Source of the DNA: a virus
DNA: 64,000 nucleotides
Strand: one strand, 5' to 3'
IMG/VR virus record: IMGVR_UViG_3300008266_008316
Span: 29,923 to 93,922 of that record
Shown here in pieces: positions 12,543-55,973 of this stretch. The notes under the pieces were generated by a model. It saw nothing but the letters and a program-made list of their open reading frames with translations. It was not told where the DNA came from and made no database searches. Made by a program: the position numbers and the translations under genes. Position 1 is the stretch's first letter, and each line of letters opens with the position of its first letter.

Positions 12543-12571
12543 TTGACAAATTGGGGGATGAGTGATATATT
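12543..12571 (+). promoter_or_regulatory. Consensus sigma70 promoter, -10 box is a hairpin loop
   Basis: TTGACA, 17-bp spacer, TATATT. The promoter precedes the lipoprotein and DNA ligase genes. The six -10 bases are exactly the loop of a 12-bp inverted repeat (next entry). Confidence 0.75.
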
Positions 12572-12583
12572 TCATTCATCCCC
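12554..12583 (+). repeat. Inverted repeat enclosing the -10 hexamer
   Basis: Arms GGGGATGAGTGA and TTCATTCATCCCC pair over 12 positions (one G-T) around the 6-base loop TATATT. As RNA from upstream it could act as a terminator; as DNA it could be an operator or cruciform. Confidence 0.8.
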
Positions 12584-12600
12584 TATTCTTTGGAGTATGC

Positions 12601-26709: not shown

Positions 26710-26914
26710 ACAGTTTAATAAGTACATCAAAGGACAGAAAGAAGATACCTATGAGTCGTGGCTTGTGGAATTGGTTTCTAAATATTTTAATGTCTCTACG
26801 GTAGAAGCAACAACATATCTTGACATTTATTATGAACACAATAGAGGCGCTCTTCGGATTTTATGTGAACTCCACGGTATCGATTCCAAGCAACTTAAGA
26901 AGGCAAAACTATGA
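26678..26914 (+). CDS. C-terminal part of split clamp loader small subunit (gp62-like)
   Basis: 78 residues if started at ATG 26678. LPKGRQFNKYIKG, LVSKYFNVSTVEATTYLDI and LCELHGIDSKQLKKAKL follow the gp62 C-terminal pattern of a short basic stretch then two helices. In T4, gp62 joins four gp44 subunits to make the clamp loader. No good Shine-Dalgarno precedes ATG 26678, which supports frameshifting or a lesion rather than an independent start. Confidence 0.5.
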   Translation: MFLTSMLPKGRQFNKYIKGQKEDTYESWLVELVSKYFNVSTVEATTYLDIYYEHNRGALRILCELHGIDSKQLKKAKL

Positions 26915-30007: not shown

Positions 30008-30221
30008 ACCAGAAGAGTTCCACTTGAAGTTTACGGGCAAGATGAGTATCCTTATTGAACTGGAAGGTCATGGTCCGTTGGAATTTCGAGTCAATGATTT
30101 ACAAGTGGTGAAGGATGCTGTACAAATTATACTAGACCACACAAATAATAAAACACCCGTAAATTCATACGGCAAGCGTGAACAGAAAACGATGCAGAAA
30201 ATACTGGATGGTATCGAATGA
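29988..30221 (+). CDS. Small hypothetical protein
   Basis: 77 residues with a lysine-rich start (MPKKKTKPEEF) and a beta-strand then helix pattern (MSILIELEGHGPLEFRVNDL). It overlaps both neighbours by a few bases. No recognised motif. Confidence 0.5.
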   Translation: MPKKKTKPEEFHLKFTGKMSILIELEGHGPLEFRVNDLQVVKDAVQIILDHTNNKTPVNSYGKREQKTMQKILDGIE

Positions 30222-31093
30222 ACAAGATTAGTTATAGTCAATATACAATGTGGGCGAATTGTCCCCAAGCGTGGAAGTTGAAGTATATTGATGGACACAA
30301 GTTTGATGATACGTCTATCAATACCATCTTCGGTACAGCTATTCACGAAGTGGTGCAAGAGTGGCTAGACACATTGTATAACAAGAGTGAGACTGTTGCC
30401 AAGTCCGTGTATTTACATGACACGTTCAAAGATAAGCTCATTACCTTGTTTAAGGAAAATGTAATTATTGATGCTAATGGGGAGAAAACCTTTCTGTCCG
30501 ATAAGAAAACGTTGATGGAGTATTACGAACAAGGCTGTCAGATTATTACTTACATCCAACAGAACTATAAGAAAATCTTTCCTACGTCTAATACGCGGCT
30601 CTTTGGTATCGAATACGAACTTCATGCCGAAATCAAACCTGGCGTAAACTATATCGGATACATTGACATCGTGACGTATAACGAACTGACGGGCAAGTAT
30701 GTTCTATATGATTTGAAAACGTCACGGGCTGGCTGGGACCAAAAAACAAAGACTGACCCGTATAAGGTTGGACAGTTGCTTCTATACAAGACGTTCTTCG
30801 CACAACAAGAGGGAGTCGATATTGACAGTATTTCGGTAGAGTTTATTATTCTCAAGCGTACGATTTTCGAGAACTCTCCATATCCAATCCCACGCGTCAG
30901 TAAGTTTGAACCACCCAACAAGACGCCTTCGCTAAACAAGAATTGGGATCGATTCCAGCAATTCGTAGACACGGCTTTCGACGAGGAGGGTAACTACATC
31001 ACGGAACAGAAAGCAACCCCGAGTAAAGAGGCATGTCGGTGGTGTGTATATCGGGATAAGAAAGAATTGTGTTCCGTTGGGGTGAAAAAGTAG
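30218..31093 (+). CDS. PD-(D/E)XK nuclease, RecB/Cas4-like, with possible Fe-S cluster
   Basis: 291 residues. SYSQYTMWANCPQAWKLKY at the N-terminus, GTAIHEVVQEWL (GxxxH), GYIDIV and YDLKT give the RecB-family nuclease motifs. Cys15 and C-terminal ACRWCVYRDKKELC supply four cysteines in the arrangement of AddB/Cas4 4Fe-4S nucleases. Likely a DNA-end-processing exonuclease for recombination. No CRISPR array or cas genes are present, so Cas4 function is not implied. Confidence 0.8.
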   Translation: MNKISYSQYTMWANCPQAWKLKYIDGHKFDDTSINTIFGTAIHEVVQEWLDTLYNKSETVAKSVYLHDTFKDKLITLFKENVIIDANGEKTFLSDKKTLMEYYEQGCQIITYIQQNYKKIFPTSNTRLFGIEYELHAEIKPGVNYIGYIDIVTYNELTGKYVLYDLKTSRAGWDQKTKTDPYKVGQLLLYKTFFAQQEGVDIDSISVEFIILKRTIFENSPYPIPRVSKFEPPNKTPSLNKNWDRFQQFVDTAFDEEGNYITEQKATPSKEACRWCVYRDKKELCSVGVKK

Positions 31094-31194: not shown

Positions 31195-31857
31195 ATGACT
31201 CGCAACGGAGTTTCTGCAAAGCTCAAAGGTATTCTTTTTATTGCAATTACGGTTCTGTATGCGTGTTCAGACTCATCAACACAAGCGGTAGACCCAGTAA
31301 TACCGCCGGATGACGCTGGAGTATCATTTTCGATGTTGTCTAGTATCATCACCGCCACGGACACGAACATCAATATTCGTGTTTCGTGGAAAGCTCCAAA
31401 TGACCCATTTGGTGCACCAGAATTTTACAGACACACGATGGTATCATCAAAAGTCGTAACAGACTCTACTACTGGAAATTTACCTACACTTAAGCAGGTA
31501 AATGGATTGGCCGATACTGTTCGTATTTCCCTAAAAAAGATAAACGATACGGTTACACTTACGTCGAACGTGTGGTCAGTTCGTCGTAGTTTACAATCCA
31601 CAACGCCTGGAATTGGAAAGCTCTTTGTAAGAAGAGGCGACCGAGCACCGTTACCACCTGACTCTATTAAGGTGGATACCATTGTAATACCAGCTGCGCC
31701 CGTAATAGGAAGTATGTCATCTGTCCTATTTCAAAATAATGCAAATACAAGATTGATAAATGAACAATCGTACAACTCTATGTTTGGAAGTTACAAAAAT
31801 GGAGTTAGTATATACAAACTAGGAAACACCACCTACTTAACGATTATTCCACAATAG
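31195..31857 (+). CDS. Predicted lipoprotein, Ser/Thr-rich
   Basis: 220 residues. A basic start (TRNGVSAKLK), a hydrophobic stretch and the lipobox LYAC give a signal peptide cut before Cys24. The mature region is rich in Thr, Ser, Val and Asp, likely beta-sandwich (INIRVSWKAPNDPFG). GAGGT precedes the ATG. It begins a trio of exported proteins and could coat the cell surface during infection or form part of the virion. No close family recognised. Confidence 0.6.
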   Translation: MTRNGVSAKLKGILFIAITVLYACSDSSTQAVDPVIPPDDAGVSFSMLSSIITATDTNINIRVSWKAPNDPFGAPEFYRHTMVSSKVVTDSTTGNLPTLKQVNGLADTVRISLKKINDTVTLTSNVWSVRRSLQSTTPGIGKLFVRRGDRAPLPPDSIKVDTIVIPAAPVIGSMSSVLFQNNANTRLINEQSYNSMFGSYKNGVSIYKLGNTTYLTIIPQ

Positions 31858-31873
31858 TATTTACGAGGTTACT

Positions 31874-32491
31874 ATGAAATGGTTATCTAGTATTCTTGCA
31901 ACATTAGTGATTTCCACTACAGCATATGCACAACCAACCCGACCGGTCGCATCGGTCAGTATGTTAACCGCCTCTCGACAAATTGCATTTCAATTGACTT
32001 GGACACAACGAGAGGCGGTTGATAGTACGATGGTAGCAGTCTTTCTGTCGAGTGATACGGTTCCAATCTTATACAGACGAACACAGTCACCAGACACTAT
32101 TCGATTTACTATTCCAACCGACACAACCACATACAGATTCTTGTTGGTAAACGTCCGTAGAAATATTGTAAGTCCGCCGGCAAATGTGAATTTCTATTTC
32201 GACGCAGATGCATACTATGTACCCAGCGGATTGTCGGTGTATCCTAAAACAGTCACTATTGATTCAACGAGCGTCACTCGTCAAGTACAGTTTTGCGCCT
32301 TCATTAAGTTTGCAGATGGTACTACAGTAATGCGAGATAGAGATTTGGTTATTCCAAAGTGTATTGAATACTACAATACAATTCCCGTGGACCAACGTTC
32401 TACTGGTGGAGCAAAGCAACGAGTGGCAAATAAAATGTGTTTGTCGTGGACAACTACGGGCGGAACGATTGAGAACGAAGTGTGTTCATAA
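31874..32491 (+). CDS. Predicted secreted beta-rich protein
   Basis: 205 residues with a Sec signal peptide (MKWLSSILATLVISTTAYAQ, cleavage after AYA). The mature part resembles the preceding lipoprotein in composition (ASVSMLTASRQIAFQLTWTQ against the neighbour's VSWKAP region), so the two may share a fold. Three cysteines near the C-terminus could form disulfides. Function unknown. Confidence 0.55.
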   Translation: MKWLSSILATLVISTTAYAQPTRPVASVSMLTASRQIAFQLTWTQREAVDSTMVAVFLSSDTVPILYRRTQSPDTIRFTIPTDTTTYRFLLVNVRRNIVSPPANVNFYFDADAYYVPSGLSVYPKTVTIDSTSVTRQVQFCAFIKFADGTTVMRDRDLVIPKCIEYYNTIPVDQRSTGGAKQRVANKMCLSWTTTGGTIENEVCS

Positions 32492-32808
32492 AAGCTATAA
32501 CGTTTAGTCTCGCTCTACAGACAAGTCAAATTAAAGTCGTTTATTCCTACGACAGAAAAACATATGATAGTTTGGAAGTCATTGTCAACAAAAATCAAAA
32601 AACGATTTACCACAAAAATCATACGTTATTCGCCGATATTGATTCAACTGATATTGGGTATGCTAGAAAAGCTGATACGGTTGAAGTAATCCTACGGGGC
32701 TATAAAAAAGATTTATATTGTTTCCCCCTTATAGACAGACTAATATATCCTTATTATAGGATTTCGTATGGGCTAAACTTTGAATGTACCAAATTAAATG
32801 GTATTTAA
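32482..32808 (+). CDS. Hypothetical exported protein
   Basis: 108 residues starting at GTG 32482, overlapping the upstream stop by 10 bases. The first 15 residues are hydrophobic (FIKAITFSLALQTSQ), signal-like but without a clear cleavage site. The body is a run of beta strands with two cysteines (LYCFPLID, FECTKL). It closes the exported trio. Confidence 0.4.
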   Translation: MFIKAITFSLALQTSQIKVVYSYDRKTYDSLEVIVNKNQKTIYHKNHTLFADIDSTDIGYARKADTVEVILRGYKKDLYCFPLIDRLIYPYYRISYGLNFECTKLNGI

Positions 32809-32813
32809 TAGAC

Positions 32814-32842
32814 TTGACAAGTGGCCTCGCAGATGGTATATT
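32814..32842 (+). promoter_or_regulatory. Consensus sigma70 promoter for SpoU methyltransferase gene
   Basis: TTGACA, 17-bp spacer, TATATT. The -10 box lies within the loop of an 11-bp inverted repeat whose right arm contains the GAGG ribosome site of the following gene. Confidence 0.78.
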
Positions 32843-32864
32843 TAGAGTATACTTCTGCGAGGTC
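32823..32864 (+). repeat. Inverted repeat spanning promoter and ribosome site
   Basis: GGCCTCGCAGA and TCTGCGAGGTC pair over 11 positions (one G-T), loop 32834-32853. In a read-through RNA the hairpin would hide GAGG (32859-32862). An RNA started at the internal promoter would lack the left arm and leave it free. Confidence 0.8.
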
Positions 32865-32870
32865 ATTTCT

Positions 32871-33482
32871 ATGAAAGAAAATCCAATGGTGAACTATAGT
32901 AAGATTATTGCCGATACGGCTAGTAATCATTACAACGTTCGTGATGAGTATAAGACGAATACCTACGAACAGAATGTCGCTATCACGATGAGTGAACAGC
33001 GTCGGTTCTCCGTGGCGTGTATCAACATTACGGGTGAACTCAATATCGGAATGATGATTCGGTCTGCGTGTCTATTGGGTGCAGAGAACTTTTATATCTT
33101 TGGACGAAAGAAATTCGATAAGCGGTCCACAGTAGGGGCTGAGAAATACATTAATATCGTCCAGTATACGTTTGATGACCCGATACACGCGGATACCGAA
33201 ATCAACGAACGATTGGAGTATTTGCTGAAGTGGAATAGCGTGGTCTTGTGTGAACATGGTGGTGTTGAAATTGGTTCATATATGTCCACGCCGATGTATA
33301 AGGAATTGAAGAATCCGTTGTTCGTGTTCGGTTCGGAGAGTCACGGGCTACCAGAAGTAGTAATAAACAATCCACACTTCTATAAGTTGAGTATTCCGCA
33401 ACGTGGAGTCCTTCGTTCGTTTAACGTCAGTGCGGCAATGAATATTATGTGTTGGGATTATATTAAGGAGACGCATCTGTGA
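32871..33482 (+). CDS. SpoU/TrmH-family RNA 2'-O-methyltransferase
   Basis: 203 residues. The knotted SPOUT fold is indicated by LNIGMMIRSA (Asn58, Arg64), FGSESHGLPE and IPQRGVLRSFNVSAAMNI, the three SpoU motifs. It transfers a methyl group from SAM to a ribose in tRNA or rRNA. ATG 32871 follows the promoter and GAGGT described above; upstream in-frame codons are not used. Its target might be host tRNA/rRNA or the phage tRNAs at the right end. Confidence 0.85.
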   Translation: MKENPMVNYSKIIADTASNHYNVRDEYKTNTYEQNVAITMSEQRRFSVACINITGELNIGMMIRSACLLGAENFYIFGRKKFDKRSTVGAEKYINIVQYTFDDPIHADTEINERLEYLLKWNSVVLCEHGGVEIGSYMSTPMYKELKNPLFVFGSESHGLPEVVINNPHFYKLSIPQRGVLRSFNVSAAMNIMCWDYIKETHL

Positions 33483-53552: not shown

Positions 53553-53595
53553 AAGGGAGCGTAAGGCATTACAGGACAAAGCCTTACGCTCCCTT
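53553..53595 (+). repeat. Palindrome of the palindrome-promoter cassette, copy 1
   Basis: 15-bp perfect stem AAGGGAGCGTAAGGC / GCCTTACGCTCCCTT with a 13-base loop ATTACAGGACAAA. The right arm runs into the -35 box TTGACT. No T tract follows, so it is not a standard terminator. Copy 2 at 55935 shares loop and arm ends. Confidence 0.85.
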
Positions 53596-53622
53596 GACTT
53601 TGGGGTAGTTTGTAGGTACATT
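53594..53622 (+). promoter_or_regulatory. Sigma70-type promoter for vWA gene
   Basis: TTGACT, 17-bp spacer, TACATT, directly attached to the palindrome. TTTGGGG (53599-53605) and CCCCAAA (53632-53638) form a second inverted repeat around the -10 box. Confidence 0.7.
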
Positions 53623-53656
53623 TCAACGTATCCCCAAAACCCCTTCATATAGGACT

Positions 53657-55934: not shown

Positions 55935-55973
55935 AGGGACGTAAGGCATTACAGGTCAAAGCCTTACGTCCCT
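55935..55973 (+). repeat. Palindrome of the palindrome-promoter cassette, copy 2
   Basis: 13-bp stem AGGGACGTAAGGC / GCCTTACGTCCCT with loop ATTACAGGTCAAA. Relative to copy 1 one base pair is missing from the stem on both arms together, so the structure is preserved. Confidence 0.85.

Follow-up and report, generated by a model that had tools for sequence, protein, structure and literature searches.

The DNA analysed here, called the window, is a 64,000-nucleotide stretch of a 94-kb virus record from a freshwater phage, and it includes a gene for a SpoU-family methyltransferase (Table 1). The SpoU frame is open in the 5' direction through a hairpin as far as an in-frame ATG at 32784 that lacks a clear Shine-Dalgarno (SD) sequence. 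Because related proteins begin at an ENPMVNY motif, sequence comparison favours the ATG at 32871 as the likely start, and use of the ATG at 32784 is unsupported by relatives. Upstream of the gene are a cassette of three genes and a PD-(D/E)XK nuclease gene, and a predicted promoter is placed in the interval between the cassette and SpoU.

Table 1 Features of the SpoU locus, related elements in the window and hairpin early promoters of T4. Positions are those of the window unless an accession is given.
Feature	Position	Strand	Basis or remark
PD-(D/E)XK nuclease gene	30218-31093	+	domain match, relatives; in relatives often immediately 5' of SpoU
Three-gene cassette, lipoprotein-like and secreted-like proteins	31195-32808	+	ORFs, relatives; last gene stops 6 nt 5' of the -35
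-35 element TTGACA	32814-32819	+	sequence, sigma70 scan
Left arm AAGTGGCCTCGCAGA, within promoter spacer, bears anti-SD CCTC	32819-32833	+	folding, inverted-repeat search
-10 element TATATT, extended, TGG just 5'	32837-32842	+	sigma70 scan
Expected transcription start region	32849-32851	+	inferred from -10 position
Right arm TCTGCGAGGTCATTT, SD inside	32854-32868	+	folding, inverted-repeat search
Shine-Dalgarno GAGG	32859-32862	+	sequence
SpoU-family methyltransferase gene (PF00588)	32871-33482	+	domain match; start backed by relatives
Sister element TTGACA-17-TATATT, -10 inside GGGGATGAGTGATAT/ATTTCATTCATCCCC	12543-12583	+	SD (12592-12595) outside hairpin
Related boundary, 18-bp hairpin into TTGACT (53594-53599), -10 TACATT	53553-53638	+	TTTGGGG/CCCCAAA around -10
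T4 hairpin early promoters, -10 inside (AF158101)	20611, 53942, 57989, 62796, 65412, 65798, 123092, 130309, 136335, 166806	-	

The sequence TTGACA-17-TATATT named in the preliminary description is present at 32814-32842, with an extended -10, and is sigma70-type by consensus. It is not of the phage late promoter type (TATAAATA). A sigma70 scan of the window found no overall enrichment (19 sites against 19.5 expected), and sites with 11 of 12 matches are few. Across the phage group, CTTGACAA is the most strand-biased word 5' of genes, occurring 39 times in the forward and 3 times in the reverse orientation. A candidate for a T4-like late promoter motif, TATTTATA, is also frequent in the group, but shows no clear directional bias.

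The promoter is interleaved with an inverted repeat whose two arms form, as RNA, a 15-bp helix of 13 Watson-Crick and 2 G-U pairs. The location of the SD in the right arm was correctly described beforehand, and this GAGG stands 8 nt from the ATG. The accompanying statement that the -10 occupies the loop of an 11-bp repeat holds only in that the hairpin does enclose the -10; the perfect core is 9 bp, and the -10 is itself paired within an apical 8-bp stem (GGUAUAUU/AGUAUACU) rather than lying in an open loop. The left arm is 5' of any start compatible with this -10, so RNA from the SpoU promoter itself lacks that arm. Among the 20 close inverted repeats of the window the SpoU arms rank fifth. 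Rfam covariance models gave no match at the hairpin, and within the window only two tRNAs reached the gathering score. No nucleotide match was found in known phages.

Folding predictions distinguish sharply between the two transcripts. The segment 32800-32900 has a minimum free energy of -31.8 kcal/mol (z = -4.1), and none of 200 shuffled sequences was as low. The preliminary description had called for both RNAs to be folded; using the window alone, opening the stretch from SD to AUG is predicted to cost 16.1 kcal/mol in read-through RNA and 4.4 kcal/mol in RNA from the internal promoter. The exact start matters little here, as any own-promoter start within 32845-32855 gives an opening cost of 3.9-5.3 kcal/mol. 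When upstream sequence was swapped between promoters as a control, the SpoU site showed +13.1 kcal/mol of read-through hiding, the third largest value among 128 sites.

We looked for this arrangement in relatives of the gene. In about 45 related phage contigs SpoU adjoins or overlaps the preceding gene, often the PD-(D/E)XK nuclease, and there is no hairpin; in the window the three-gene cassette stands between SpoU and its usual upstream gene. Conservation of the hairpin 5' of SpoU was considered and rejected, as every non-identical relative whose upstream sequence could be read lacked it. Judged from these comparisons, the hairpin is not ancestral to SpoU. No divergent orthologue of the SpoU hairpin turned up in the collections, all other copies being 100% identical, so the SpoU locus provides no covariation.

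The cassette is found at other places in two related contigs, L033 and L034, and is absent between the nuclease and SpoU genes of other relatives. Its copies (window 31195-32808; L033:3830-5441; L034:428-2050; L161 at about 1357-2972) differ in their place of insertion, and hairpins are also present in the 5' leader of the lipoprotein-like cassette. At the downstream boundary of the cassette there are hairpin promoters of different sequence in L033 and, after one further gene, in L034, and only a weak one in L161. The sequence evidence that the hairpin might travel with the cassette is therefore mixed.

The finding that relatives manage SpoU without a hairpin, together with the lack of a divergent orthologue, would suit a good promoter lying beside an accidental and functionless hairpin. 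We surveyed 1.18 Mb of related phage DNA, listing its sigma70-like sites and scoring for each the best helix that its spacer can form with its leader; the null was the spacer of one site paired with the leader of another (permuted arms). Identical sites were removed, although the contigs are related and the site counts thus not fully independent. Sites that match the consensus at 11 or more of its 12 positions were taken as the best promoters (n = 132), and for this count a strong hairpin is one scoring 25 or more. The -10 lies inside a strong hairpin, an arrangement we call class A, in 13 of the 132 best promoters, where 0.15 would be expected, and a score of 25 or more was reached by 0 of the 223 weakest sigma70-like sites. 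The margin over permuted arms is wide and grows with promoter quality, and the SpoU element is among the strongest, which makes a chance origin very improbable.

The genes 3' of hairpin promoters include those for SSB (gp32-like), DNA ligase, a primase-like protein, a UvdE-like endonuclease and a peptidase family. The genes 5' of them are codirectional, and most end no more than 40 nt from the -35. In a second class the -35 lies in the loop (8 of 132, with 0.19 expected). Members with TTGACA in the hairpin loop include L128:1450(-), L128:18228(-), L107:3708(-), L097:13859, L138:2868 and L098:19896(-), and several hairpins of this kind have T-rich sequence before the -10 and appear to be fused terminator-promoters. 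Further hairpins sit just 5' of the -35 in the phage group. Those built on GTAAGGC/GCCTTAC variants (window 53553-53595 and 55935-55973; L089:1275; L121:19451) have a right arm that directly abuts the -35 (CCCTTGAC), and resemble a terminator module that recurs ahead of promoters.

An inverted repeat does exist at the SpoU promoter, and inverted repeats around the -10 are a common operator layout, so the repeat might instead be an operator bound by a protein, or form a cruciform in the DNA. The pairing itself bears on this. In choosing helices for the tally, G-U and A-C were alike scored as mismatches; class A helices nonetheless contain 29 G-U against 1 A-C, where permuted helices contain 988 against 984. 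With homologous sites tallied once, the ratio is about 22 to 1. Such a bias indicates selection on the sense-strand RNA and would not be given by a DNA-level function. The arms also differ wholly between sister sites, orthologous genes included. For one gene the hairpin persists among orthologues from different phages, with the arms GGCTTATCGGGTGCTAG/CTAGTATCCGATAAGCC, AAGGACGCCCTAGCAATTAT/ATAGCTGCTAGGGTTTTCTT and ACCTCAGGTGTTAT/ATAGCATCTGAGGT, and other orthologous genes give comparable pairs, in which pairing is kept with unrelated arm sequences. An operator or cruciform is accordingly extremely improbable. Since the left arm is missing from the RNA of the promoter itself, the structure under selection must be that of the read-through RNA. 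In two primase-like orthologues (L123:3758 and L130:2432(-)) it is the start codon, not the SD, that pairs with the promoter spacer, and a compensatory change from T-A to C-G is seen between them.

Hiding of the ribosome site recurs in the group. The SD or start codon is overlapped in 7 of 17 strong hairpins and in 14 of 244 weak ones (score below 18), and at 7 of 128 sites read-through is predicted to raise the cost of opening the SD-to-AUG stretch by at least 8 kcal/mol, where the swapped-upstream control gives 0.17 expected. The earlier proposal that read-through RNA folds over the SD and that internal RNA, lacking the left arm, does not is thus backed by modelled folding, the swapped-upstream control, recurrence and the asymmetry of G-U and A-C pairs. 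As an account of function, hiding of the ribosome site fits SpoU by predicted folding but is not the whole story, since many sister hairpins leave the SD outside. Some hairpin families leave it free altogether, for example those at window 12543 and L121:17067, as does the element at L131:8552, which suggests that the common element is a hairpin formable only by read-through RNA and that SD hiding is one use of it. Sister hairpins with the SD outside may act by terminating transcription, and at some sister sites SD hiding may be a by-product.

This raises the question of whether the SpoU hairpin, too, is mainly a terminator for upstream RNA, fused with the following promoter for compactness, with SD hiding secondary. 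The enrichment of the -35-in-loop class, whose right arms lead into T-rich tracts (T 0.53 vs 0.36), speaks for this, as do a mild T excess in class A (0.36 vs 0.27), the resemblance of some class A members to good terminators (e.g. L131 CTAGGGTTTTCTTC) and the record of phage T5, which annotates terminators overlapping the next promoter at operon boundaries. At SpoU, however, the strong stem is followed by a weak tract only (ATTTCTAT; stem to ATG, GAGGTCATTTCTATG), and the site is absent from the list produced by a terminator scan. The SD or start codon also falls in an arm far more often than it does in weak helices. We regard a mainly terminating role as unlikely, and prefer the reading in which the SpoU hairpin silences translation of read-through RNA.

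Known phage systems provide a close comparison. Passages in two T4 reviews describe an RNA helix that hides the SD and/or AUG of longer transcripts of e, soc, 49 and I-TevI, and late promoters just upstream of e and I-TevI that yield RNA without the 5' arm (PMC3014915, PMC2988022). Our hairpin-promoter scan recovers T4 e (67018) and I-TevII (45638). The SpoU element is like the e, soc, 49 and I-TevI leaders in the helix over SD or AUG on the longer RNA; those genes have phage late promoters and delayed expression, whereas the SpoU promoter is sigma70-type. The preliminary description took this to be a contrast with T4 itself, and here it fails, for T4 sigma70 early promoters have the same layout. 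Among 66 candidate early sites, picked by a sequence pattern of our own rather than by mapped starts, 10 reach a score of at least 25, where 0.4 would be expected; of 31 early sites whose SD is clear, 9 are predicted to conceal it by at least 8 kcal/mol (0.82 expected).

The T4 early hairpin promoters include those of regB, rnlA, denV, nrdC.8 and 30.8; in some the right arm contains the SD, and in the others the SD follows the hairpin. That of regB is called a typical early promoter in a passage of PMC3014915. Its SD-hiding hairpin shows compensatory changes between Tequatrovirus, Mosigvirus and Dhakavirus, the arms having changed and the pairing having been kept; two Gaprivervirus genomes showed no such hairpin, though in one of them the aligned start is perhaps misplaced. 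The searched passages of three T4 reviews, including the early-transcription review PMC2988021, hold no description of hairpins at early promoters and mention late promoters alone for the layout that hides the ribosome-binding site (RBS), older subscription literature lying outside that search. The T4 early sites resemble the SpoU element in having the -10 in a hairpin, with the SD in the right arm at some, and depart from the late type in the same way; they differ in belonging to another phage group and in a -35 consensus of TTTACA.

T5 shares with the window group the overlap of terminators and promoters at operon boundaries and has one SD-hiding promoter, at AY543070 26776(-) in the annotated promoter region 26722-26796, where the spacer AAACCTCTC pairs with GAGGGAGGTTT at the SD of the gene. 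Across its first 100 kb, however, hairpins enclosing the -10 are not in overall excess, nor are they in 50 kb of SPO1.

Insertion sequences offer a second parallel. External RNA entering IS10 folds and hides the RBS of the transposase. IS200 has one terminator stem-loop and one stem-loop that occludes the RBS (PMC3196728). The likeness to the SpoU element is that incoming RNA folds over an RBS; the difference is that IS10 and IS200 guard transposase genes of mobile elements, whereas the gene guarded here is an ordinary phage gene for a methyltransferase, with no transposase, which places it outside that group. On the best reading of the modelled structures, the SpoU element would work like the T4 e and I-TevI leaders and the IS10/IS200 guards, yet stand outside the late-promoter class. 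The RBS-hiding design itself is known from phages and insertion sequences, and the version with a sigma70 promoter is a variant of it.

Overall, on computational evidence throughout, we think it probable that the SpoU element is an insulated, read-through-proof promoter that keeps read-through RNA silent. This is supported by its anatomy, the folding contrast, recurrence, covariation within the class and the G-U asymmetry; promoter activity, translational silencing and timing at SpoU are inferred. Host-type RNA polymerase would initiate at about 32849 and make an mRNA with the right arm alone, on which the GAGG would be open and SpoU translated. RNA arriving from the upstream cassette would have both arms, which would form co-transcriptionally a helix of about 15 bp with its apical stem, hiding the SD and leaving SpoU silent on the long RNA. 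Ribosomes finishing the upstream gene would halt at 32808, some 10 nt 5' of the left arm, and the core should stay unmelted. The output of SpoU would thereby be tied to its own promoter despite the codirectional gene block. Sister elements with a free SD would probably reach the same end partly through termination of read-through RNA.

Phage genomes have codirectional genes, little space and frequent polymerase read-through. It is a roughly even call whether phages in general embed sigma70 promoters in hairpins, as is seen in phages as unrelated as those of the freshwater group and T4 (at its early promoters), and so deafen operons to the read-through of their neighbours, via RBS hiding or termination, without a dedicated regulator. 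A promoter that erases read-through translation would give each gene its own on-switch at the cost of no extra protein. As the layout occurs at many early promoters of T4, the best-studied phage, laboratory strains already allow a test of the idea. For annotation, it would mean that a co-transcribed gene need not be co-expressed.
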